From Phenylobacterium sp. (lineage in GTDB: Bacteria; Pseudomonadota; Alphaproteobacteria; Caulobacterales; Caulobacteraceae), in contig NZ_JAUYAF010000020.1 in assembly GCF_030693625.1 (NCBI RefSeq), positions 39,094-103,093 on the forward strand: 64,000 nucleotides of DNA, written 5' to 3'. A program made the position numbers and the translations under genes. The notes under the pieces were generated by a model. The model worked only from the letters and a program-made list of their open reading frames with translations, was not told where the DNA came from and made no database searches. Shown here piece by piece: positions 15,904 to 45,190 of the stretch (positions are counted from its first letter, which is position 1; the number at the start of each line of letters is the position of its first letter).

Positions 15904-15928
15904 AACGGTCAGGCTGCAGCCTGGTTCC
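15904..15928 (-). promoter_or_regulatory. EcfG-type promoter for the entericidin-like gene
   Basis: Minus strand GGAAC (15928-15924), 16-nt spacer, CGTT (15907-15904). The -10 is 40 nt before the ATG at 15864. The site lies within the last codons of phyK. Exact match to the remembered GSR consensus GGAAC-N16/17-CGTT. Confidence 0.8.
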
Positions 15929-17633
15929 CTGATTGGTCCTCAGGCTTCACTGTATTTTCGAGACCGGGGGTCGGGAAGACGAGCCGGACCGTCACGCCGC
16001 CGGTTTCATTGCGCACCAACTCGGTCCGACCGCGCAGCTGACGGGCGAAGGCGGTCATCAGGGTCCTGCCCACGCCGGACGCCGTAAGCACGTCATTGCT
16101 GGACTGCCCGTCGTCGCTGATATCCAGCTCCGCCTCGTCGCCACGCACCTTGAAAGTGACCGTCAGCGTGCCGCCCCGGCCCGCGAAGGCGTGCTTCTGG
16201 GCGTTGGTGATCGCCTCGACGGCGAACAGGGCGAGCGGCGCCAGCCTGTCGGGGTCGATCACCAGGGCGTCCACATGTATCTCGGTCTTCACCGGGCCCC
16301 CATGCAGGGCCTCGGCGGAGATGAGCTGGCCGGTCAGCTCCTCCAGGAAGGGCCGCAGATCGACCTTCTTCAGGTCCGGGCCCTGATACAGAGCGCGATA
16401 GATAAGGGCGAGGGCGGTGATCCTCTGGCGGGTGTCGGACATGGCCGCCCGGGCGGCGGGGTCGGTGAGGGCGCGCTGCTGCATGTTGAGCAGCGAGGAG
16501 ATGACCTGCAGGTTGTTCTTCACCCGGTGATGGATCTCGCGCATCAGCGCGTCCTTCTGGGCCAGGTTGTCGCGCAGGGTGGCGTCGCGCCCGACGATGG
16601 CGTCGGCCATCTGCTCCAGGGTTTCGGCCAGGTCGCGGATTTCCGGCGGTGCCTGTTCGGCCTGGACCGGACGCACCGTCAGGCGGCCCCGGGCATAGAG
16701 CGCCGCGATCCTCTGCAGATAAGCGATCCAGCGGATCACCACCCGCTCGGTCACCACCAGCACCGCCAGCAGGGCCAGAACGAAGGCCAGGATTGGGAAG
16801 AGCAGGCCGGTCAGGGGGTTGAGCCGCGCCCAGGAGAACAGGCCCTGGGCCCTGGCCGAGAGGATCACATAGAGGTCGTCCCCCACCAGCGGCGCGGCGG
16901 AGTAGACCCGGCGCTGGCCGCGGCGATCCTCGGCGTACCAGACCACCGAGCCCTTGGCGTCGGCGCGGGCGCGCCAGTCGCGCGGCAAGGCGGGAAACGC
17001 CTCGCGGTCGGTGAGGTTCATGTAGTCGCCCTGCCCATCGGCAAGGGCCACCTCGGCCTCGTCGGGCAGGGAACGGTCGGCCAGGCGCGGGGCCAGGCTC
17101 TGCAGGGAGATCACCGCCACCAGGGCGCCGTCAAAGCCGACCTTGGGATCGGTGGAGCGGACCGCCGCCAACAGCACCGGTTCGCGGCCATAGATGGCGC
17201 CGGGATCGCGGGTGACCACCAGGTTGTCGCCCTCGGCGAGCTGCCGGAACCAGGGGCGCTCGGCGCGGGCAGGGTCGCTGGGAACATCATGAGCGGCGCA
17301 GGCGACCCGGCCGCGCCGGTCGAAACGGATCAGGTTTGAATAGCCGGGGATGCGCTGGGTCACCTCGGCCAGGCGCTGGGCGCACTGGAGGCCGACGGAA
17401 GCCGGCGCCAAGGTTTCCAGCAGGATGTCAGCGGCCTCCATCCGGGCCCGCGCCGTGGCGGCGCTGCGCTCGGCCGAGGCGGCGAGGTTCTGGCGGACGA
17501 TCTCGCCCTCTCGACGGAAGGCCATGGAGGACTGGATCGCGCCGAGGATCAGCACCGGCAACAGGGCCGCGGCCAGCGCGGCGGTAAGGCGCACCCGGAT
17601 CGTCGACAGAGAACCCCAGGGGGATGTGATCAT
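15909..17633 (-). CDS. phyK: Sensor histidine kinase PhyK (HisKA_2 family)
   Basis: 574 aa. TM1 at residues about 13-35, an extracytoplasmic sensor region (36-280), TM2 near 285-310 (LLFPILAFVLALLAVLVV), HAMP-like linker, then HisKA_2 with phospho-His in MREIHHRVKNNLQVISSLL and a HATPase domain (EAITNAQKHAFAGRGG, GVGRTLMTAFARQL). Position behind ecfG and kinase type match Caulobacter PhyK, the kinase/phosphatase acting on PhyR. ecfG ends 14 bp upstream, so nepR-ecfG-phyK is probably one operon. Confidence 0.88.
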   Translation of the reverse strand: MITSPWGSLSTIRVRLTAALAAALLPVLILGAIQSSMAFRREGEIVRQNLAASAERSAATARARMEAADILLETLAPASVGLQCAQRLAEVTQRIPGYSNLIRFDRRGRVACAAHDVPSDPARAERPWFRQLAEGDNLVVTRDPGAIYGREPVLLAAVRSTDPKVGFDGALVAVISLQSLAPRLADRSLPDEAEVALADGQGDYMNLTDREAFPALPRDWRARADAKGSVVWYAEDRRGQRRVYSAAPLVGDDLYVILSARAQGLFSWARLNPLTGLLFPILAFVLALLAVLVVTERVVIRWIAYLQRIAALYARGRLTVRPVQAEQAPPEIRDLAETLEQMADAIVGRDATLRDNLAQKDALMREIHHRVKNNLQVISSLLNMQQRALTDPAARAAMSDTRQRITALALIYRALYQGPDLKKVDLRPFLEELTGQLISAEALHGGPVKTEIHVDALVIDPDRLAPLALFAVEAITNAQKHAFAGRGGTLTVTFKVRGDEAELDISDDGQSSNDVLTASGVGRTLMTAFARQLRGRTELVRNETGGVTVRLVFPTPGLENTVKPEDQSGNQAAA

Positions 17634-17647
17634 GTCTTGCCCGTCGC

Positions 17648-18253
17648 CTAGCGGGCGCTAGAGAGGCGCTCCGCATCCGCCAGGATGGAGCGCATCGCGT
17701 CGCCGGCGGCTCCACCATCACGATCATAGGCCCCGTCGTCGAGGATCGCGTGCAGGGCGCGCCGCGCGCGGCTGACCCGGCTCTTCACGGTGCCGACCGC
17801 GCAGTTGCAGATTTCGGCTGCCTCCTCATAGGCGAAGCCTCCAGCGCCCACCAGCACCAGGGCTTCACGCTGCTCTGCCGGCAGCATGGCCAGCGACAGG
17901 CGCAATTCGTCCAGGGCGACGGGCGCCTCGGGGTCGTCCACCGCCACCAGGGTCCGCTCGGCGGCTTCCTGGTCGAGCTGGCTTTGCCGCCAGGACCGAC
18001 GCTTCTCCGAATAGAACTGGTTGCGCAGGATCATGAAGGTCCAGGCCTTCATGTTGGTGCCCATCTGGAAGCTGTTGCGCGCGTCCCAGGCCTTCATCAT
18101 GGCGTCCTGCGCCAGATCGTCCGCGCCGGCCGGTTCTCCGGCCAGGGTCCGTGCGAAGGCGCGCAGGTGGGGGATCAGTTTGACGAGTTCGCGCTTGAAC
18201 GCCTCGTCATCCGCAGCCGAGCGGTTGGCGTTCTTGGAATCGTCCCCGGCCAT
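17648..18253 (-). CDS. ecfG: General stress response sigma factor EcfG (SigT)
   Basis: 201 aa ECF sigma factor (EcfG group). Sigma2: LIPHLRAFARTLAGEPAGADDLAQDAMMKAW and NMKAWTFMILRNQFYSEKRR; sigma4: LPAEQREALVLVGAGGFAYEEAAEICNCAVGTVKSRVSRAR. Together with nepR and phyR alongside, the identity is secure. Role: directs RNA polymerase to GGAAC-N16/17-CGTT promoters when freed from NepR. The ATG overlaps the nepR stop (TAATG). Confidence 0.95.
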   Translation of the reverse strand: MAGDDSKNANRSAADDEAFKRELVKLIPHLRAFARTLAGEPAGADDLAQDAMMKAWDARNSFQMGTNMKAWTFMILRNQFYSEKRRSWRQSQLDQEAAERTLVAVDDPEAPVALDELRLSLAMLPAEQREALVLVGAGGFAYEEAAEICNCAVGTVKSRVSRARRALHAILDDGAYDRDGGAAGDAMRSILADAERLSSAR

Positions 18254-18441
18254 TAGCCGTTCTCCGAAGAACGCTTGTCAGCCTTGCGGAGGATATCCAG
18301 GAATTCGTCGGGGACCGGCTCGTTGACGACCTCGTCAAACATCTGGCGCAGACGCGCGCCAATGGCCTGCTGCCGAAGTCGGGCTTCGTCGAGAACCGCG
18401 GAGACTTTCCGCGGGTCCACATTGGATGCTGGTTCGATCAT
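18253..18441 (-). CDS. nepR: Anti-sigma factor NepR
   Basis: 62 aa from ATG at 18441 with GAGG just upstream; longer starts would run into the promoter region. Core RLRQMFDEVVNEPVPDEFLDIL is the NepR signature that wraps EcfG and, alternatively, the sigma-like domain of PhyR. First gene of the nepR-ecfG-phyK operon, transcribed from an EcfG-type promoter at 18575-18550. Confidence 0.95.
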   Translation of the reverse strand: MIEPASNVDPRKVSAVLDEARLRQQAIGARLRQMFDEVVNEPVPDEFLDILRKADKRSSENG

Positions 18442-18549
18442 GTCCTCGGCGCCCCGCTTGCGCGGCGCTTGCCCCCTCGATTGGTCATCGTCGCCCGTCA
18501 ACGCCCCGCTCCGGTTCCGGTTCCCATGATCGCGCTCTAGGATGGACAA

Positions 18550-18575
18550 AACGCACGCCTTAGGGAACCGGTTCC
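18550..18575 (-). promoter_or_regulatory. EcfG-type promoter for nepR-ecfG-phyK
   Basis: Minus strand GGAAC (18575-18571), 17-nt spacer, CGTT (18553-18550). Its -35 is one half of the palindrome GGAACCGGTTCC at 18564-18575, shared with the phyR promoter. Predicts autoregulation of the sigma operon with a leader of about 100 nt. Confidence 0.8.
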
Positions 18576-18588
18576 CCACAGCGACGTT
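18564..18588 (+). promoter_or_regulatory. EcfG-type promoter for phyR
   Basis: Plus strand GGAAC (18564-18568), 16-nt spacer, CGTT (18585-18588), about 78 nt before the phyR start codon. Shares the palindromic -35 with the divergent nepR promoter. Confidence 0.8.
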
Positions 18589-18665
18589 TCCGGCGCTATG
18601 CTGAGCGCTATCGGGCGGGTTATCCCGACGTGGTCGCGTGTTCCTAAAACGGGGAGGGTAAAACC

Positions 18666-19460
18666 TTGAGTCTGCTAGCCCGACTGGCGCCGCATCTTCC
18701 TTATGTGCGCCGCTATGCCCGCGCCCTCACCGGCGATCAAACCACCGGTGATCACTATGTCCGTGTCGCGCTGGAGGCCCTGGCGGCTGGCGAGAGGGTC
18801 CTCGAGGCCAATCTCACGCCGCGGGTGGCGCTCTACCACGTCTTCCACGCCATCTGGCTGAGCACGGGCGCCAAGCTTGAGCCCCGCGATGGCGGTGTCA
18901 CGAGCGACGACGCCAGTGGCCGGCTGATGCGGATCGCGCCCCGGTCGCGCCAGGCCTTCCTGCTGACCGCTCTTGAGGGCTTTACGCCGTCGGAGGCCGC
19001 ACAGATCCTGGGCGCCGACTTCGCCGAGGTGGAGGGACTGATCGGCGAGGCGCAAGCTGAGATCGACGCCGAATTGGCCACCGACGTCCTGATCATCGAG
19101 GATGAACCGGTGATCGCCGCGGACATTGAGGCCCTGGTCACCGAACTGGGCCACACCGTGGTGGATATCGCCGCAACCCGAACCGAGGCGGTCGACGCGG
19201 TCAATCGCAAGGTCCCGGGCTTGGTGCTGGCCGACATCCAGCTGGCCGACGGCTCCTCCGGGATCGACGCCGTGAAGGACATCCTGGCCCGCTACGATGT
19301 GCCGGTGATCTTCATCACCGCCTTCCCGGAACGCCTGCTGACCGGTGAGCGCCCCGAGCCCACCTTCCTGATCACCAAACCTTTCCAGCCCGAAACGGTG
19401 AAGGCGGCGATCGGCCAGGCCTTGTTCTTCCATCCCCGGAACGCCAAGCAAGCCGCCTGA
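18666..19460 (+). CDS. phyR: General stress response anti-anti-sigma regulator PhyR
   Basis: 264 aa from a TTG with GGGGAGGG about 8 nt upstream; the start MSLLARLAPHLPYVRRYARALTG is as I recall for Caulobacter PhyR. Residues 1-130 are the EcfG-like decoy domain; residues about 140-255 the receiver: DVLIIEDEPVIA, phospho-Asp in LVLADIQLADGSSG, ITAFPE and TKPFQPETVK. Known mechanism: phosphorylation by PhyK exposes the sigma-like domain, which binds NepR and frees EcfG. Confidence 0.95.
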   Translation: MSLLARLAPHLPYVRRYARALTGDQTTGDHYVRVALEALAAGERVLEANLTPRVALYHVFHAIWLSTGAKLEPRDGGVTSDDASGRLMRIAPRSRQAFLLTALEGFTPSEAAQILGADFAEVEGLIGEAQAEIDAELATDVLIIEDEPVIAADIEALVTELGHTVVDIAATRTEAVDAVNRKVPGLVLADIQLADGSSGIDAVKDILARYDVPVIFITAFPERLLTGERPEPTFLITKPFQPETVKAAIGQALFFHPRNAKQAA

Positions 19461-19481
19461 TCTTCGAGCCATGGCTTGAAC

Positions 19482-19506
19482 GGAACGCCGGCCTCGCGCC
19501 GGCGTT
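19482..19506 (+). promoter_or_regulatory. EcfG-type promoter for DUF1328 gene, superimposed on phyR terminator
   Basis: GGAAC (19482-19486), 16-nt spacer, CGTT (19503-19506), exact consensus, 53 nt before the ATG at 19559. The same bases form the phyR terminator hairpin. Confidence 0.6.
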
Positions 19507-19512
19507 TTCGTT
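19484..19512 (+). terminator. phyR intrinsic terminator
   Basis: Perfect 9-bp stem AACGCCGGC / GCCGGCGTT (19484-19492 and 19498-19506), 5-nt loop, followed by TTCGTT. The arms coincide with the -35 and -10 of the EcfG-type promoter described above. Confidence 0.7.
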
Positions 19513-19558
19513 GTCAGGCCGCCGCGTCGGGCGGGGCCATGGTTCCGGAGTCGATTTC

Positions 19559-19732
19559 ATGCTGGGCTGGTCCTTGACCTTCGCCGTCCTCGCCATCGTG
19601 GCGGGCCTCCTGGGCTTCATGGGCCTTGCGGGCCTCGCCGCCACCGTGGCCAAGGTGCTGTTCGTCATCTTCCTGGTGCTGCTGGTGGGCAGCTTTGTCA
19701 TCCGCGCGGTGCGGGGGCAGTCGGTCCTCTGA
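19559..19732 (+). CDS. DUF1328 small membrane protein (YtjA family)
   Basis: 57 aa: MLGWSLTFAVLAIVAGLLGFMGLAGLAATVAKVLFVIFLVLLVGSF..., two transmembrane helices, the DUF1328 pattern. ATG at 19559 has GGAG at 19547-19550. Function unknown; family genes are often stress-induced. Preceded by an EcfG-type promoter. A close paralogue lies at 23668-23838. Confidence 0.85.
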   Translation: MLGWSLTFAVLAIVAGLLGFMGLAGLAATVAKVLFVIFLVLLVGSFVIRAVRGQSVL

Positions 19733-19752
19733 TCCACCGACATCGAGATATG

Positions 19753-19781
19753 AAAACGGCCGCCCAGTGGGCGGCCGTTTT
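19753..19781. terminator. Bidirectional intrinsic terminator
   Basis: Perfect 13-bp stem AAAACGGCCGCCC / GGGCGGCCGTTTT with loop AGT, between converging genes ending at 19732 and 19802. A-tract and T-tract at both sides allow use in both directions. Confidence 0.88.
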
Positions 19782-19801
19782 GCATTGTAGGTGCGAGAGC
19801 C

Positions 19802-20068
19802 TTATCGCGGGGCGTCGGGCGACGTCTGCTGGGTGTTCTCGGCCGGCGCTCCGGCGTCAAAGATCTGAGCATCGGCCGGCTGGCGCGCATTGTTGACCTC
19901 GGTGGAGGCGAGGTTGTCGGCCTGCCAGGTCCAGGCGCCGAACAGAGCCATGGCGGCAAGGGCGGTGGAGACCAGCAGCACCCAGAAGACATGACGACCA
20001 AAACGGCCCTGGCGGGCGCGAGTGGCGTTGAGGACGGGGTGGTCGGAATTGCGGGAGAGGACGGCCAT
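19802..20068 (-). CDS. Small single-pass membrane protein, GSR cluster
   Basis: 88 aa: polar N-terminus, one helix (VFWVLLVSTALAAMALFGAWTW) and a polar tail ending QQTSPDAPR. AAGGAG precedes the ATG. No family recognised. Second gene of a two-gene unit with 20089-20292, 20 bp downstream of it; both are probably expressed from the EcfG-type promoter at 20362-20338. Confidence 0.65.
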   Translation of the reverse strand: MAVLSRNSDHPVLNATRARQGRFGRHVFWVLLVSTALAAMALFGAWTWQADNLASTEVNNARQPADAQIFDAGAPAENTQQTSPDAPR

Positions 20069-20088
20069 GGGGGTGGCTCCTTAGTTAC

Positions 20089-20292
20089 CTAGTTCGGGAA
20101 ATAGCTGAATGGACCGGGGGGAACCGGGCCTGCGGCGTCGCGTGCGCTGAGCTGGCCGATCAGGCCGCCGGCGAAGGCGACCCCCAAGACCACCGCAATG
20201 GCGGCGGTGCGGCGGCGCGTCTGGCGCTGGCGCGGGCTCGGCGCGGTGAAATTGACCACTCCGCTGGTGGGCGCATCAAAGGCGCGGATCAT
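20089..20292 (-). CDS. Small membrane protein, GSR cluster
   Basis: 67 aa from ATG at 20292: MIRAFDAPTSGVVNF, a basic stretch RQRQTRRR, one helix (TAAIAVVLGVAFAGGLIGQL), tail ending FSYFPN. Unknown family. An exact EcfG-type promoter ends 46 nt upstream of the start. Confidence 0.65.
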   Translation of the reverse strand: MIRAFDAPTSGVVNFTAPSPRQRQTRRRTAAIAVVLGVAFAGGLIGQLSARDAAGPVPPGPFSYFPN

Positions 20293-20337
20293 GGGGGACC
20301 CCCGAGTTCGACGCGAGCCGGACGCCCGCATCTTGCT

Positions 20338-20362
20338 AACGCCACAGCCCTGCTGCTGTTCC
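20338..20362 (-). promoter_or_regulatory. EcfG-type promoter for two small membrane protein genes
   Basis: Minus strand GGAAC (20362-20358), 16-nt spacer, CGTT (20341-20338); exact consensus, start codon at 20292. Confidence 0.8.
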
Positions 20363-20438
20363 CGCTCATCGACGGTTCAGGTGGGTTGCGGCAAGATGAG
20401 TCGCAATGAGGTCGCGGCCTCCCCATCTATTGAGCATC

Positions 20439-20765
20439 ATGATCAAGCCCAGGTACGTTCTCGCCGCCGGCCTCGCCGCCGGTCTCATGTTCGCCTTCGC
20501 CAACCTCGCCTCTGCGCAGGGCGCGGCCCTGGAAGGTCGCGAAGTCCGCGCCTCCGATGGCGCGGTGGTGGGGACGATCGCCAAGGTGATCGCCGGCGCC
20601 GACGGACGCCCGCTGCAGGTCCTGGTTCAGCCGAAGGGCGCACGCCCGACCGGCCCGCGCAGCCTGCCCTACAAGGCCCTGAGCGCGGACGGCGATCGCT
20701 TTGTCATCCCGCTCAGCAAGGCGGAGTTCGACTCCATGCCGGCGGTGAATCTGGCGGTGAAATAA
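20439..20765 (+). CDS. Secreted PRC-barrel-like protein
   Basis: 108 aa from the ATG at 20439 (a 119-aa form from 20406 is possible). Signal peptide (YVLAAGLAAGLMFAFANLASA) then one compact domain: LEGREVRASDGAVVGTIAKVIAGADGRPLQVLVQP, which has the PRC-barrel strand pattern. Periplasmic. I see no EcfG-type promoter in front of it on this strand. Confidence 0.6.
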   Translation: MIKPRYVLAAGLAAGLMFAFANLASAQGAALEGREVRASDGAVVGTIAKVIAGADGRPLQVLVQPKGARPTGPRSLPYKALSADGDRFVIPLSKAEFDSMPAVNLAVK

Positions 20766-20789
20766 ATTCTGAAAAACCCTCGCAAAACG

Positions 20790-20814
20790 GGAACAAAGGA
20801 TTTTGCGGTGTGTT
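20790..20814 (+). promoter_or_regulatory. EcfG-type promoter for the small RNA
   Basis: GGAAC (20790-20794), 16-nt spacer, TGTT (20811-20814). One deviation (T for C in CGTT) from consensus. The predicted start is at about 20820, exactly where the structured RNA begins. Confidence 0.65.
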
Positions 20815-20819
20815 TGATA

Positions 20820-20942
20820 TTTGCGAAGGCGGCGACGCCCCCCCCGACTTGAGGCCGGCGCACACGCCGGTCTGCCGCCTTCGCACCCCATTCTCGACGT
20901 GCACACCTTCAAGGCGGCTCCCCCCAGAGCCGCCCTTTCTTT
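20820..20942 (+). ncRNA. gsrN: Candidate GsrN small RNA of the general stress response
   Basis: A non-coding stretch with strong designed-looking structure. A perfect 12-bp stem (20822-20833 with 20874-20885) encloses a run of eight C (20838-20845) and a CCGGCG-CACA-CGCCGG hairpin (20855-20870). A terminator hairpin GGCGGCT / AGCCGCC (20913-20934) with a C6 loop and a CTTTCTTT tail ends it. Length about 120 nt. An EcfG-type promoter precedes it. Caulobacter GsrN is, as I recall, a roughly 100-nt sigma-T-dependent sRNA with a C-rich recognition loop and an intrinsic terminator, often syntenic with the GSR locus. Orthology is inference. Confidence 0.6.
20913..20942 (+). terminator. Terminator of the small RNA
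   Basis: Stem GGCGGCT / AGCCGCC (20913-20919 and 20928-20934), loop CCCCCCAG, then CTTTCTTT. Confidence 0.8.
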
Positions 20943-20955
20943 GCGCCCTGCCGGC

Positions 20956-21414
20956 CTAGTTGCGCGGGGTCGAGAGCTTGAGAGTAACGTCGGCGCGACG
21001 GCGCAGGGGCCGATTGTCGCCGCCGGTGGTGGTGGAGCCGGCCTGACCCGCGGCGCTCAGATCCAATTCGGCGGCGGGCAGGCCGCTGGCGGCCAGCGCC
21101 TGGGTGACGGAAGACGCCCTCTGCCTGGAGAGTTCCAGGTTGGCGGCCGGAGCGCCGGCGGCGTCGGCCAGGCCCATGACCAGAACCTTGTCCACCTGAC
21201 AGCCCTTGGCCTGATCGGCGGCGGCGCGCAGGACGGCGCGGCCTTCCTTGGTGACCTCAGCGGAGTCAGGCTCGAAGTAAATCTCCGCCGTCACGTCGGC
21301 GCAACTCGCCTCGCGCGTGACGATGCGGTCGCGGGCGCTGGTCATTGTCGTGCAGCCGGCCCCCAGGACCGACACCACCAGAACCGCCGCACCAAGTCCA
21401 CGAACCATCGTCAT
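20956..21414 (-). CDS. OmpA-family lipoprotein
   Basis: 152 aa. Lipoprotein signal ending LGAGC, then an OmpA C-terminal-like domain: AEIYFEPDSAEVTKEGRAVLRAAADQAK, MGLADAAGAPAANLELSRQRASSVTQALAASGLP, RRRADVTLKL. The order matches peptidoglycan-binding OmpA domains, with the second consensus Asp/Arg region (LSxxRAxxV) intact. It converges on the small RNA. ATG at 21414; 21408 is an alternative. Confidence 0.8.
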   Translation of the reverse strand: MTMVRGLGAAVLVVSVLGAGCTTMTSARDRIVTREASCADVTAEIYFEPDSAEVTKEGRAVLRAAADQAKGCQVDKVLVMGLADAAGAPAANLELSRQRASSVTQALAASGLPAAELDLSAAGQAGSTTTGGDNRPLRRRADVTLKLSTPRN

Positions 21415-21481
21415 CAGCCACACCTTCTTGGAACAGGCCGCCACCATAGCCCAGCGCCGCGGCATAGCCATCCACAGCAGC

Positions 21482-21506
21482 AACGCCTGGCGACGCTCCG
21501 CGTTCG
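21482..21506 (-). promoter_or_regulatory. Weak EcfG-type promoter candidate for the OmpA-like lipoprotein
   Basis: Minus strand CGAAC (21506-21502), 16-nt spacer, CGTT (21485-21482): one mismatch in the -35. Lies 68 nt before the ATG at 21414. Confidence 0.3.
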
Positions 21507-21520
21507 ACGCCGTCGCAAGG

Positions 21521-21545
21521 GGAACCCCCAACAGCCTCCACCGTT
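21521..21545 (+). promoter_or_regulatory. EcfG-type promoter for the 104-aa membrane protein
   Basis: GGAAC (21521-21525), 16-nt spacer, CGTT (21542-21545); exact consensus, 35 nt before the ATG at 21580. Confidence 0.8.
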
Positions 21546-21579
21546 TCGTGAGTCCAACAAGCGACCGGAGACCACGATC

Positions 21580-21894
21580 ATGCTGTGGAAGCGCCGCAAC
21601 ACTTCGCCCGACGCCCTGACGCACGAAGAGCAGGAGGTTCGCGACGCCGGTGAGCGTGGCCGCCGTGACGAGCGCAAGGCGCGCAAGCGTCACCCGATCA
21701 TGATGACCCTGACCTTCGCCGCCGCCCTTGTGGGCGGCCTGGTGCTGGCCCCGGCCGTCATGGAAGGGTCCTTCGCCCGCAGGGGCGGAATCGTCGATCA
21801 TGGCTTGGCCCTGGCCACCAATCATGCTCAGCCCGTGGTCATGGACGCCGCTCGTGACCTGAAGGCCAAGACCTTCCGCCAGACGGAAAGCTGA
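21580..21894 (+). CDS. Small membrane protein, GSR cluster
   Basis: 104 aa from the ATG at 21580 (GGAG at 21567-21570). Charged N-terminus (HEEQEVRDAGERGRRDERKARKRH), one helix (MMTLTFAAALVGGLVLAPAV) and a polar C-terminal half. No family recognised. An exact EcfG-type promoter precedes it, and the lipid kinase gene starts 7 bp after its stop, so both may respond to stress. Confidence 0.7.
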   Translation: MLWKRRNTSPDALTHEEQEVRDAGERGRRDERKARKRHPIMMTLTFAAALVGGLVLAPAVMEGSFARRGGIVDHGLALATNHAQPVVMDAARDLKAKTFRQTES

Positions 21895-21901
21895 GCTCCG
21901 C

Positions 21902-22822
21902 ATGGGGGCCACGATCCGCAGCATCGAACTGATCGCCAACACCGCCTCGGGCAGTGTCGGAGCCGCAGCGCCTGACGAGGCGCGTGCCCTGCTGGCCGAG
22001 TTCGGCGGCAAGGCCAATGTGTGCGTGCCCGAGGGCGGCGACCTGGCGGGCTGCCTGCAGGCCGCCATCGACCGGGCCCCCGACCTGCTGGTGATCCTGG
22101 CCGGTGACGGCACCGCGCGCGCCGCGGCCGAGCTTTGCGGCATGGACGGACCGATGATCGCGCCCTTGCCGGGCGGGACCATGAATATGCTGCCCAAGGC
22201 GGTCTATGGGACCACCGACTGGAAGGCCGCCCTGCGCGACACCCTTGAACAGGGCGAGGAACGCACGATCGGCGGTGGCGTGGTGGACGGTCGCCTGTTC
22301 CTGGTGGCGGCCATCCTTGGCTCCGGAGCCTTGCTGGCGCCCGCCCGCGAGGCGGTGCGCGAGGGTCGCCCGGTGATCGCCTTCCACCGGGCCCGGCGAG
22401 CGTGGCGCCGGGCCTTTTCCGGCCGCCTGCGCTACAGCCTCGACGGCGCGACGCGCGGCAAGGCCGAGGCCATGACCTTCATGTGCCCCATCGCCTCGCG
22501 CGCTCTGAATGACGACGACCAGTTCCTGGAGGCCGCGGCGCTCGATCCCACCGGCGTGGCCGAGGCGCTGCGCATCGGGCTGCATAGCGTGATGGGCGAT
22601 TGGCGCGACGATCCCGCGGTCGAGGCCGTGGCCTGCCGGCACGCCCGGGTCTGGGCTTCGAGCGGCATACCGGCCGTGCTGGACGGGGAGCCCGCGCGTC
22701 TGAAGGCCAGCGTCCAGGTGAGCTGGAAAAGCGCGGTCACGCGGGTACTGGCTCCGCCCAAGCAAGACCACGCCGAGGCCGGCGGAGATGTGCCCAAAGA
22801 GACGGTCAAGGCGGCGAGCTGA
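21902..22822 (+). CDS. Diacylglycerol kinase-family lipid kinase
   Basis: 306 aa. NTASGSVG near the start, the catalytic-core motif VILAGDGTARAAAEL (GGDGT-type, first Gly replaced by Ala) and APLPGGTMNMLPK are those of DAGK/sphingosine/YegS-like kinases. The C-terminal beta-sandwich carries LDGEPARLKA, the family's DGE motif. Likely phosphorylates a membrane lipid. Cotranscription with the preceding stress gene and overlap with the phosphoesterase gene (TGATG) suggest a three-gene unit. Confidence 0.8.
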   Translation: MGATIRSIELIANTASGSVGAAAPDEARALLAEFGGKANVCVPEGGDLAGCLQAAIDRAPDLLVILAGDGTARAAAELCGMDGPMIAPLPGGTMNMLPKAVYGTTDWKAALRDTLEQGEERTIGGGVVDGRLFLVAAILGSGALLAPAREAVREGRPVIAFHRARRAWRRAFSGRLRYSLDGATRGKAEAMTFMCPIASRALNDDDQFLEAAALDPTGVAEALRIGLHSVMGDWRDDPAVEAVACRHARVWASSGIPAVLDGEPARLKASVQVSWKSAVTRVLAPPKQDHAEAGGDVPKETVKAAS

Positions 22823-23598
22823 TGCGCATCGCCCACCTGTCCGACATCCACTTCGGCGGCGAGAACGTCGAGGCGGTGGCCGCAGCGACCGAGTGTCTTG
22901 CCGCCGATCCGCTCGATCTGGTGGTGGTCTCCGGCGACCTGACCCGCTTCGGCGAGAAGGGCGAGTTCGCGTCCGCCGCCGCATGGCTCAAGCAGCTTCC
23001 CGAACCCAGGCTGGTGACGCCGGGCAATCACGACGCTCCGTACCTCGCCTGGTATGATCGCCTGTTCTCCCCCTTCGCCCGCTATGAGCGCGCCATCGGC
23101 CCCGCCCGTTTCCAGACTCATCTGGCGCCGGGCCTGGCGGTGTACGGCGTCAACACAGCGCGCGGGGTCCAGCCCCGCGCCAATTGGTCAAAGGGGCAGA
23201 TTTCCGACAACCAGGTGCAGGAGGCCCTGGCCTGGTTCGCCGCGGCGCCGGCTGACACCTTGAAGATCGTCGTCTGCCACCATCCGCTTACTGAGATGAT
23301 CGGCGGGCCCATGACCGGCAAGGTCTGGAACGGGGAGGCCGCCGCCAAGGCCTTCGCCGAGGCCGGGGTCGACCTGGTGCTGAGCGGGCACATCCACGCC
23401 CCCTTTACCTGGCCCTACGGCTATGGCGACGGCAAGACCTACGCGGCGGGTTGCGGAACCCTTTCGATCCGCGAGCGCGGCGTTCCGCCCGGATTCAACA
23501 TCGTGGAGACCGACGGCGCCGAGATCCGGGTCACGGCCAAGGCCTGGACTGGGAGCAAGTACGAGTCGGAGCGCACCTGGTCGCTGACGCGGCGCTGA
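22822..23598 (+). CDS. Metallophosphoesterase (calcineurin-like)
   Basis: 258 aa. All metal motifs are present: AHLSDIHFGG, VVVSGDLTRFGE, VTPGNHD, VCHHPL and LSGHIHAPF. Closest in style to CpdA-like/Icc phosphodiesterases. The substrate is unknown; in a pair with a lipid kinase a lipid phosphate or nucleotide is possible. ATG overlaps the lipid kinase stop. A terminator follows. Confidence 0.82.
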   Translation: MRIAHLSDIHFGGENVEAVAAATECLAADPLDLVVVSGDLTRFGEKGEFASAAAWLKQLPEPRLVTPGNHDAPYLAWYDRLFSPFARYERAIGPARFQTHLAPGLAVYGVNTARGVQPRANWSKGQISDNQVQEALAWFAAAPADTLKIVVCHHPLTEMIGGPMTGKVWNGEAAAKAFAEAGVDLVLSGHIHAPFTWPYGYGDGKTYAAGCGTLSIRERGVPPGFNIVETDGAEIRVTAKAWTGSKYESERTWSLTRR

Positions 23599-23612
23599 CC
23601 CGCACAAAGAAA

Positions 23613-23648
23613 AGCGCGCCCGCGACCAGGTCGGAGGCGCGCTCTTTG
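23613..23648. terminator. Intrinsic terminator between converging genes
   Basis: Stem AGCGCGCC / GGCGCGCT (23613-23620 and 23636-23643) followed by CTTTG on the plus strand and TTTCTTTG on the minus strand. Confidence 0.75.
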
Positions 23649-23667
23649 ACCTTCGTCTGCGGCGTGT

Positions 23668-23838
23668 CTAGACGCTTCGCCCGCGGACGAGGTGCATGAC
23701 GAGGCTGACCACGAACAGCACCAGGAAGACGAAGAACAGAATCTTGGCGACACCCATCGCGGCGCCCGCGATCGAGGTGAAGCCAAGGAGGCCGGCGATC
23801 AAGGCGACCACCAGGAAGGTCAGGGCCCAGCTCAGCAT
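23668..23838 (-). CDS. DUF1328 small membrane protein, second copy
   Basis: 56 aa: [25 protein letters not shown]..., [27 protein letters not shown]. Two helices; a clear paralogue of the protein at 19559-19732 (shared ALTF, AGLLGF, AKxLF, FLVLxVxS and VRG). GGAG precedes the ATG. Exact EcfG-type promoter at 23898-23874. Confidence 0.85.
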
Positions 23839-23865
23839 GGGGGAAGCTCCGGTTGGTTGGCGTAC

Positions 23866-24543
23866 CTAGCTTGAACGTGCATCAAGCTCAGCCGTTCCCG
23901 TGGCGGGCTTCACCGGCGCCGGATGGGTCCAGGCTTGGCCTTCCCCACGCGACGCCGCGTACTGGCCCTTGGCGAAGCTCCAGTTCGGCAGGGCGTCGAA
24001 CCAGGCGTTCAGGAAGCCCTCACGGTCATTCTTGTGGTCCAGATAGTAGGCGTGCTCCCACAGGTCACAGACCAGCAGGGGGGTAAGGCCGCGATGGATC
24101 AGCAGGTCCTCGGCGTCATGGGTGGAGAGCACCTTGAGGGTCTCGCCCTCGGCGGCCAGCCAGACCCAGCCCGAGCCGAAGTGGGCGGCGCCCTCCGTCA
24201 CGAAGGCGGCCTTCAGGGCCTCGAGTCCGCCGAAGTCACGGGCGATCGCCTGGGTCAGAACACCATCGGGCGCCTGGCGCCCTGCGCTCATCGCGGTCCA
24301 GAAGAAGGTGTGGTTCCAAGCCTGGGCGGCGTTGTTGAACAGCTTTCTGGCCGCGTCATCGCCGACGGCCTCCCGGACCACGTCCTCCAGGCTGTCCGGC
24401 GTGCGGCCGGCCTTGGCCAGCAGGGTGTTCAGCGTCTCGATGTACTTCTTGTGATGCTTGCCGTGATGCACGTCCATCGTGGCGCGCGAGATCACCGGCT
24501 CGAGGGCGGCGTGGTCGTAGGGCAGGGGGGGCAGTTCAAACAT
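23866..24543 (-). CDS. sodB: Superoxide dismutase, Fe/Mn family (Fe-like)
   Basis: 225 aa. Metal ligands are visible: LPYDHAALEP (His), WNHTFFW (His), VCDLWEHAYY (Asp, His). The Gln in NNAAQAWNHT, placed N-terminally of the second His, is the Fe-SOD type. FGSGWVWL is conserved. Converts superoxide to peroxide and oxygen. It has a C-terminal tail of about 20 residues beyond the usual end. No EcfG motif was found in front of it, but its 3' end carries the promoter of the DUF1328 gene. Confidence 0.9.
   Translation of the reverse strand: MFELPPLPYDHAALEPVISRATMDVHHGKHHKKYIETLNTLLAKAGRTPDSLEDVVREAVGDDAARKLFNNAAQAWNHTFFWTAMSAGRQAPDGVLTQAIARDFGGLEALKAAFVTEGAAHFGSGWVWLAAEGETLKVLSTHDAEDLLIHRGLTPLLVCDLWEHAYYLDHKNDREGFLNAWFDALPNWSFAKGQYAASRGEGQAWTHPAPVKPATGTAELDARSS
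23874..23898 (-). promoter_or_regulatory. EcfG-type promoter for the second DUF1328 gene
   Basis: Minus strand GGAAC (23898-23894), 16-nt spacer, CGTT (23877-23874); exact consensus inside the last codons of sodB, 36 nt before the ATG at 23838. Confidence 0.8.
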
Positions 24544-24612
24544 GGCGGGGTTCCGGGTGGGGGGCGTGAAACGCCCGTCCCTTCCGAAACCCCTGAACCT
24601 GCGTGAGGTTCG

Positions 24613-25014
24613 CTACTTTTTCTTCGCCTTGTCGGCGGAGCGTGTGGCCATGGCGGTGGCGAGCACCGTGGCCACGATCTTCGGATTCCTCAGCGCCACC
24701 AGGCTGGCCCCGATGATGGCGCTGGCCGCGACGATGGGCTTTTCCTTGGCGAGATCGATCAGCCGGGTGAGGGTGTCTCGCTCCTCAGCCTGTTTTCCAA
24801 GCCTCGGCGGGTTCACCTTGATCAGCAGCGCCATCGCGCACAGCGCCATCAACACCGCGGCCGCACCGGCGACCGAGGCTGCGGCCCAGGCCGGCCCCAC
24901 CTGCGGCAGGACGGCCGCATAGAGCGTAAAGGCCAGCGCCACGACGACAACGACCGCCGCCGCGCCAAGCGCGGAGACGGCCGAGACGTAGAGAACGGCT
25001 TTCTTGAAGATCAA
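24613..25014 (-). CDS. Holin-X/YqjE-like membrane protein
   Basis: 133 aa from a TTG that overlaps the upstream stop (TTGA). Two helices in residues 5-70 (VSALGAAAVVVVVALAFTLYAAVL; AWAAASVAGAAAVLMALCAMALL) with the P-x-x-G-x-A-W turn common in the phage-holin superfamily III/YqjE group, then a KEKPIVAASAIIGASLVALRNPK segment. Function unknown. The order DUF883 then this gene mirrors E. coli yqjD-yqjE. Confidence 0.65.
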   Translation of the reverse strand: MIFKKAVLYVSAVSALGAAAVVVVVALAFTLYAAVLPQVGPAWAAASVAGAAAVLMALCAMALLIKVNPPRLGKQAEERDTLTRLIDLAKEKPIVAASAIIGASLVALRNPKIVATVLATAMATRSADKAKKK

Positions 25015-25334
25015 CGGTTGCGGCCGCTGGCGAGCAGCAGACCCACCAGGAGACCAACGCCCAGCGCGGTGCCGGCGGCCATCAGGGGCTTCTCACGAAC
25101 GCGCTCGACGACGTAGCGCTGGGCTTCGTCGAGATGTTCGCCGGCGTTGTCGGCATAGGTGCGGCTTTGGGCGCGAACCTGCTCCATGCCCTCGGCGACC
25201 ACCTTCTCAAAGCGCTTCGCGGCTTCGGCGAAGCTGCGTTCGGCCTGGCTGGCCAGTTGGGTCGCGGCCTCGGCCACGGAATTGGCGGCGGCCTTGGCTT
25301 CCTCGGCAGTCCGTTCGACGGCGTTCGCGGGCAT
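25011..25334 (-). CDS. DUF883 (YqjD/ElaB-like) membrane-anchored protein
   Basis: 107 aa. Long amphipathic helix with Ala/Glu/Lys heptads (residues 5-75), then VREKPLMAAGTALGVGLLVGLLLASGRNR, a C-tail anchor typical of YqjD/ElaB, which bind ribosomes at the membrane in stationary phase. GGAGA precedes the ATG. Driven by an exact EcfG-type promoter at 25426-25402. Confidence 0.75.
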   Translation of the reverse strand: MPANAVERTAEEAKAAANSVAEAATQLASQAERSFAEAAKRFEKVVAEGMEQVRAQSRTYADNAGEHLDEAQRYVVERVREKPLMAAGTALGVGLLVGLLLASGRNR

Positions 25335-25401
25335 TGAAGAATCTCCAGAAAATTAGGGGCAGCCCCCGCAAGGCCTTGCGAGCGTGGGGAAGCACAGCCA
25401 G

Positions 25402-25426
25402 AACGCCACCATCTTAGGCCGGTTCC
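25402..25426 (-). promoter_or_regulatory. EcfG-type promoter for the DUF883 operon
   Basis: Minus strand GGAAC (25426-25422), 16-nt spacer, CGTT (25405-25402); exact consensus, 68 nt before the ATG at 25334. Confidence 0.8.
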
Positions 25427-25532
25427 GGCTGCGGCGCAAAGCTGTCGCGCCTGATCGAATTGTGTTCGGCATTGGGGCCCTCAGCCCACGGTTCCTGTCG
25501 CATCGGCGCAAACAGCGATCTATGGTCTTCTC

Positions 25533-44927: not shown

Positions 44928-45036
44928 CCGCGCCGGCCCCGGTGATCGCGTGGCGGCGCTTGAGAAGTCGACCCCGGGGGCCTATCTTGATCCTCGGCGG
45001 GTCTGCTGCGGATCTCGTCGAAGGCAACAAATCCCA

Positions 45037-45190
45037 GAGACCTTAATTCTCTCTACGGGAGCTGTCCCTGTCCGGGCTCGTGGGCCCGGGCATATGGCGC
45101 CCACCTGGTATACCAGGTCCGAGGGGGTTTTAACCGTCCTTCACGGCTCTCGCGGCGCCGCCACCCTTTCCCTCCCTCAGGGTGAGAGAC
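45037..45190 (+). ncRNA. ssrS: Candidate 6S RNA (ssrS)
   Basis: A 264-bp gap before fau contains an extended fold: closing stem CTCTC/GAGAG (45049-45053 with 45184-45188) and GGGAG/CTCCC (45057-45061 with 45172-45176), hairpin CCGGGC/GCCCGG (45072-45089) and a perfect 16-bp palindrome ACCTGGTATACCAGGT (45103-45118). 6S RNA is classically encoded immediately upstream of the 5-formyltetrahydrofolate cyclo-ligase gene, as here. Ends are approximate; the identity rests mainly on synteny and the closing stem. Confidence 0.55.

Follow-up and report, generated by a model that had tools for sequence, protein, structure and literature searches.

A probable GsrN orthologue in the general stress locus of a Phenylobacterium genome and a predicted, apparently uncatalogued companion family of small RNAs with the same recognition loop

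In Caulobacter crescentus the small RNA GsrN (ccna_R0081), which aids survival under stress, is a sigma-T-dependent transcript of about 106 nt; it is cleaved to a stable 5' isoform, its full-length form is stabilised by Hfq, and a loop with six C mediates its pairing with katG (Tien et al. 2018, PMC5869019, cited throughout from the accessible part of its text). There, the first 58 nt of the RNA are enough for peroxide survival, and 27 of the 67 enriched regions have a predicted pairing to its 3' exposed region. The same paper reports homologues from Caulobacter, Brevundimonas and Phenylobacterium, most of them close to ecfG, nepR and phyR; C. crescentus itself is an exception in this respect.

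The Rfam family that would correspond to this RNA bears another name, CC3552 (RF01529). This name is absent from the accessible text of PMC5869019 and from that of PMC5988900 and PMC11005374, both of which mention GsrN, and no paper linking it with GsrN was found in the literature searched. Our identification of RF01529 with GsrN is an inference based on length, loop, numbering and distribution. The model length of 106 equals the end of the published GsrN numbering (106), and the C. vibrioides MAG L100 has six C in the loop. When that sequence is numbered by hand from the G that follows the -10 element, nucleotide 37 falls in its inner loop and C53/T54 at a published GsrN end; the second published end, T64, is a C there.

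An earlier note on the DNA studied here had proposed, from the letters alone, a GsrN orthologue at 20790-20942 of the window (the whole stretch analysed, 64,000 nucleotides), and a covariance search bears the proposal out. RF01529 matches over its full length, 1-106, at 20825-20935 of the + strand; the score is 75.7 bits (cut-off 50), with E 2.8e-10 when the whole window is searched. The Rfam scan of the 64-kb window gave just one other match over cut-off, a 6S RNA at 45000-45162 (RF00013, 54.9 bits, cut-off 46.4). Since the Rfam model, the promoter, the covarying structure and the general stress response (GSR) locus all agree, the segment 20823-20942 (+) is very probably a GsrN orthologue, and as such a member of a catalogued and published family.

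The promoter is a pattern match of the EcfG (sigma-T) type on the + strand, with GGAAC at 20790-20794, a 17-nt spacer and GTT at 20812-20814; the earlier note, too, had read an EcfG-type promoter here. The -10 element is TGTT, and CGTT is the EcfG consensus. Judging from the homologues, the putative gsrN gene starts at G20823 and runs to a T-rich tail at 20942. Stem, inner hairpin, C8 run and terminator were likewise found where that note had placed them, with two corrections. The perfect 12-bp stem exists as DNA (20822-20833/20874-20885) but has 11 bp in the RNA, because this would start at G20823; and of the six C at 20920-20925, which had been taken for a C6 terminator loop, the first is paired with G20927, so that the loop is five C and an A (CCCCCA).

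The 11-bp stem, supported by the fold and by the homologues, has its arms at 20823-20833 and 20874-20884 and closes a 5' domain (20823-20884). This domain contains the putative target-recognition loop GACGCCCCCCCCGACUUG at 20834-20851, conserved and predicted unpaired, and an inner hairpin at 20852-20873 seen in the fold and in compensatory changes. The computed unpaired probability is at least 0.82 over 20838-20851, save for C20845 (0.66) and G20846 (0.60), and ranges from 0.66 to 0.95 within the C8 run (20838-20845). A single-stranded linker, ACCCCATTCTCGACGTGCACACCTTCAA, occupies 20885-20912 and is followed at 20913-20942 by an intrinsic terminator, recognized in the fold and in a terminator scan, with the stem 20913-20920/20927-20934 and the tail CTTTCTTT. 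For the strand 20822-20942 the computed folding energy is -56.4 kcal/mol, where shuffles average -38.1 (z -5.37) and none of 200 does as well.

Across the family, RF01529 matches 125 of 199 genomes, 119 of them over cut-off, and 46 of the 60 genomes of the window's genus; the 5' domain is present in 17 of the 22 genera sampled. From 155 places, 119 were fetched as loci and four chance matches were dropped, which left an alignment of 115 rows, including two below cut-off (L225, L269). The earlier note had made its proposal depend on structural conservation in related genomes, and in the alignment of these 115 homologues 96.3% of cells preserve the structure of the window's RNA and 23 of its 28 pairs show changes on both sides; in controls where the partners were slid by 1-3, the values are 35-51% of cells and 4-8 two-sided pairs. 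All 11 pairs of the closing stem are standard in 115 or 114 of the 115 homologues. The inner hairpin shows compensatory changes (e.g. CG/UA 46/66 at 20856:20869), and its innermost pair, 20860:20865, is not kept, being unpaired in 54 of 111 cells. GGAAC-N16..18-GTT precedes 109 of the 115 homologues, with a spacer of 17 in 100; one of the other six (L246) is truncated at a contig end.

The loop columns 20834-20851 have conservation values of 0.84-1.00 save C20838 (0.52), where the length of the C-run differs. C8 is the norm in the window's genus (42 of 56, range C6-C14) and C7 in other genera (35 of 59, range 5-9); the longest run of the genus, C14, is found in L224 (G108). This homopolymer variation, from 6 to 14 within the genus, could tune the choice of targets. 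The linker carries the motif TCTCGATGATG in 79 of 115 homologues, the window's copy being a variant, CTCGACGTGC, and is possibly a second pairing site or an Hfq/RNase site. The GsrN stretch of Phenylobacterium sp. LY.12 (L101) is the same as in genome G169 of the window's genus. Second, sub-cut-off RF01529 matches of 35-37 bits in four g3 genomes (L237, L238, L241, L242), the four dropped before the alignment, were rejected as paralogues: GGAAC is missing from them, and they resemble conserved coding sequence.

The gene belongs to a phyK-ecfG-nepR-phyR locus, where it follows phyR at a distance of 1.4 kb. The sensor kinase phyK, the input of the GSR, is at 15909-17633 (-; NF051872, 868.5 bits, cut-off 750). 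An ECF sigma factor at 17648-18253 (-; Sigma70_r2, r4_2 and TIGR02937 sigma70-ECF over cut-off) is assigned to ecfG/sigT by its position next to the anti-sigma factor nepR at 18253-18579 (-; NF051865, 118.5 bits, cut-off 100; PF18557), and phyR is at 18666-19460 (+; NF006623, 371.2 bits, cut-off 240; PF22029). In a set of 30 GsrN-bearing genomes of the genus, 29 have their best PhyR match starting no more than 2.2 kb from GsrN. There are 12 GGAAC-N16..18-GTT sites in the window, where 2.7 would be expected, and none of 100 shuffles reached 12. Nine of the 12 cluster at 18500-25430, including sites before phyR and before a DUF1328 gene; on sequence grounds, this segment is a general-stress island.

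The link with PhyR extends to the family, in which 123 of 125 GsrN genomes have a strong PhyR match against 27 of 74 without GsrN (199 genomes, phylogeny ignored); the two exceptions are G004 and G050. This count depends on 21 PhyR matches classed as weak by eye, all save G094 with E above 1e-17; G094 (E 2.4e-21, 181-aa frame) was also classed as weak, and shifting it changes 27/47 to 28/46. Five genomes of the genus (G051, G067, G079, G084, G148) have katG and neither a PhyR nor a GsrN match, and in these the general stress response has apparently been lost together with GsrN.

The RNA of the window is therefore like that of C. crescentus in promoter type, stem, C-rich 5' loop, inner hairpin and terminator, and like most homologues in the accessible text of PMC5869019 in lying beside GSR genes. 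It differs from C. crescentus GsrN in having C8 instead of six C, the terminator loop CCCCCA and the linker variant already given, and in a genome without a fitting katG leader.

This last difference bears on the possibility that, as in C. crescentus, activation of katG is the main task of the RNA, which we consider very unlikely here. The genome does encode katG (743 codons), and the earlier note had singled out katG among the leaders against which pairing of the two C-rich loops should be predicted. Such pairing is not supported in this genome: the leader has no G-tract upstream, and its best duplex with the loop (-11.4 kcal/mol, shuffle mean -17.6) is equalled or bettered by 100 of 100 shuffled leaders. 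Within the genus 40 of 60 genomes have katG, and 30 katG loci yielded 28 leaders for scoring (none from L183 and L190), with the loop of our own species used for all and with starts picked mechanically, so that in some relatives the leader may have been misplaced. Four GsrN-bearing relatives, G199, G136, G209 and G221, have GTCGGGG upstream of katG; here 5, 29, 11 and 11 of 100 shuffles respectively do as well, which leaves only G199 clear of its shuffles. At most 5 of 100 shuffles are as good in G225, G199 and G079 only, the last without GsrN. In L201 (G136) and L205 (G199) GGTCGGGG(G) is found about 30 nt before the katG start, the C. crescentus site being at the 5' end, and the effect of such a site on translation could differ. 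Over the family GsrN and katG tend to occur together (95 genomes with both, 30 with GsrN only, 27 with katG only and 47 with neither, of 199; phylogeny ignored), but among strong-PhyR genomes the link is weak (94/29/16/11, p 0.09; phylogeny again ignored). Within the genus (29/17/11/3 of 60, p 0.35) katG is absent from 17 of the 46 GsrN genomes and present in 11 of the 14 without GsrN. As pairing with katG concerns one target in one species and is no criterion of the family, the leader result bears on the function of the RNA and not on its assignment.

Two further readings concern the 3' half. The earlier note had suggested that both C runs might be seeds, and the C8 loop and the terminator loop are indeed both single-stranded in the predicted fold; the terminator loop is identical in G175 and related in G132 (TCCCCG), and the 27 of 67 C. 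crescentus regions predicted to pair with the 3' exposed region would suit a second seed. However, a terminator-loop C-run of at least five is found in just 2 of the 115 homologues (our own and G175) and one of at least four in 4, other loops such as GAAA, TTCG and GCAA being among the commonest, and the 5' loop is nearly invariant. Moreover the linker at 20885-20912 is the better conserved second single-stranded part, and in C. crescentus the first 58 nt suffice (PMC5869019, accessible part). That both loops pair with mRNAs is thus very unlikely. We give hardly any credence to the idea that the terminator, or the RNA as a whole, mainly serves the convergent OmpA-like gene on the minus strand (stop at 20956), as its 3' end or as an antisense element: the hairpin does lie 21 nt past that stop codon, but the terminator scan is positive on the + strand only, and the 5' domain covaries, occurs in 17 of 22 genera and has an EcfG-type promoter of its own.

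The genome was also searched for TCAAGTCGGG, the complement of the GsrN loop. Ten sites were found against 14 for the reversed pattern, and hence no target-site enrichment. Two of the ten are small RNA genes themselves, gsrN and, outside the window, a putative companion of about 82 nt on the minus strand of contig C24 (11338-11419, or L286:1501-1582), with GGAAC upstream, a hairpin and a terminator. Its loop CGCCCCCCCGACUUGA is the same as that of GsrN, carried in one hairpin. In the predicted structure a stem GGGCGACGGC/GCCGTCGCCC encloses the loop AAATCGCCCCCCCGACTTGA and the terminator follows (fold z -4.86). In the putative promoter GGAAC is followed by 24 nt and then the RNA, with AATTG and not GTT at -10. 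An AHSA1-domain gene lies on one side and on the other a gene that resembles an amidase by its motif. In an alignment of five close relatives, no change is seen in 73 of the 82 columns of the RNA; the invariant columns number 31 of 61 in the 60 nt just upstream, 100 of 143 further upstream in the amidase-like gene, and 45 of 296 downstream, a figure lowered by one relative that breaks off in the alignment. The best Rfam match, sX13 (RF02232), reached 24.5 bits against a cut-off of 50 and was rejected, and no Rfam family matched over cut-off.

The companion is thus like GsrN in its EcfG-type GGAAC and its loop, and unlike it in being a single hairpin plus terminator of some 82 nt, without the GsrN-type inner hairpin or linker. 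As modelled, it would resemble the active 5' domain of GsrN minus these two parts. Among described systems, sX13 of Xanthomonas acts with C-rich loops on G-rich mRNA motifs near starts, independently of Hfq (PMC3771888, accessible part), but it has three such loops and belongs to the Gammaproteobacteria. The UCCC-motif small RNAs of S. aureus, RsaA and others, form a group with one common unpaired C-rich seed, RsaA being SigmaB-dependent (PMC3961350, accessible part); unlike GsrN and the companion, they have a shorter motif, depend on SigmaB and not EcfG, and are unrelated RNAs.

A covariance model built from three companion sequences (R2) matched 12 of 390 family genomes, all 12 with GGAAC 29-35 nt before the model start. 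The refined model R3 matched 50 of 390 at E <=0.05, in 53 places, 50 of which were read (those of G367, G341 and G340 were left out). Of these 50 loci, 31 have both a loop CGC(4-12)GA and GGAAC at -25 to -36, 2 the loop only, 3 the promoter only and 14 neither (p 7e-8); in comparable windows of these loci the frequency of GGAAC is 1.3%. Because the model included the loop and not the promoter, the conservation of the loop is partly due to selection by the model, and stems and promoter are the independent evidence. We regard the 16 loci without promoter as chance matches, although the loop fits in two of them (L325, L330).

The 34 promoter-bearing loci are distributed over 32 of the 390 genomes (19 of the window's genus, 9 of g21 and 4 of g22), and in unconstrained folding each of the 34 leaves the C-run open, enclosed by at least 7 bp. 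The folds show 23 kinds of outer 8-nt arms, some of which differ in register only. In the 14 largest gene groups, neighbours within 1.5 kb are common within five genome sets and not between them. Rfam at gathering found tRNAs only in eight of the 34 loci (L288, L291, L298, L300, L304, L305, L313, L316). An order-wide search gave four matches outside the family, none with GGAAC; two of these (L337, L339) have a C-run in the first hairpin, and a diverged relative is therefore possible there.

Of 199 genomes, 19 carry the companion, and strong PhyR is present in 19 of 19 compared with 131 of the 180 others. Among PhyR-bearing genomes a GsrN match is absent from 10 of the 19 with the companion and from 17 of the 131 others (p 2e-4, phylogeny ignored), although nine of the ten belong to one genus (g21), so that few independent events are involved; strict RF01529 filters may miss a diverged GsrN, and R3 may miss companions. 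The companion would then be either an addition to GsrN, as in our own genome, or a stand-in for it. No paper on a second GSR small RNA with the loop of GsrN was found in open-licence PMC, and one may be in print elsewhere; the companion family is apparently uncatalogued.

By analogy with C. crescentus, from which transcription, processing and pairing are inferred, stress would act through PhyK and PhyR, encoded 1.4-4.9 kb away, to free EcfG from NepR, and EcfG would transcribe a GsrN of about 120 nt up to the intrinsic terminator. The loop GACGCCCCCCCCGACUUG, kept open by the 11-bp stem and inner hairpin, would pair with G-rich mRNA sites of the GUCGGGG type and change their translation, and the 5' domain is probably cut free as the active form. 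Family membership, promoter sequence, covarying structure and locus are what the computational analysis itself shows.

We are tempted to suggest, as the more probable interpretation, that Caulobacteraceae have a second, uncatalogued family of EcfG-driven small RNAs, which would carry the GsrN recognition sequence (CGCCCCCCC-GACU) on a minimal hairpin, at no fewer than five unrelated positions and with stems freely replaced, and would stand in for an undetectable GsrN in some lineages (g21, G181). On this view, what the stress regulon conserves would be the recognition sequence, borne on different scaffolds through relocation or repeated invention. Since the same loop is found on a putative second hairpin RNA behind an EcfG-type promoter (contig C24), it is the recognition sequence, and not the scaffold, that seems to be kept by selection. 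The RNA of the window is ordinary on its own; it is the companion that merits further work. In this light katG, a proven direct target of GsrN in C. crescentus, is neither needed for the retention of GsrN nor matched here, and the nearly invariant loop, recurring on a second RNA behind a stress-type promoter, points to conserved targets of the GUCGGGG type.
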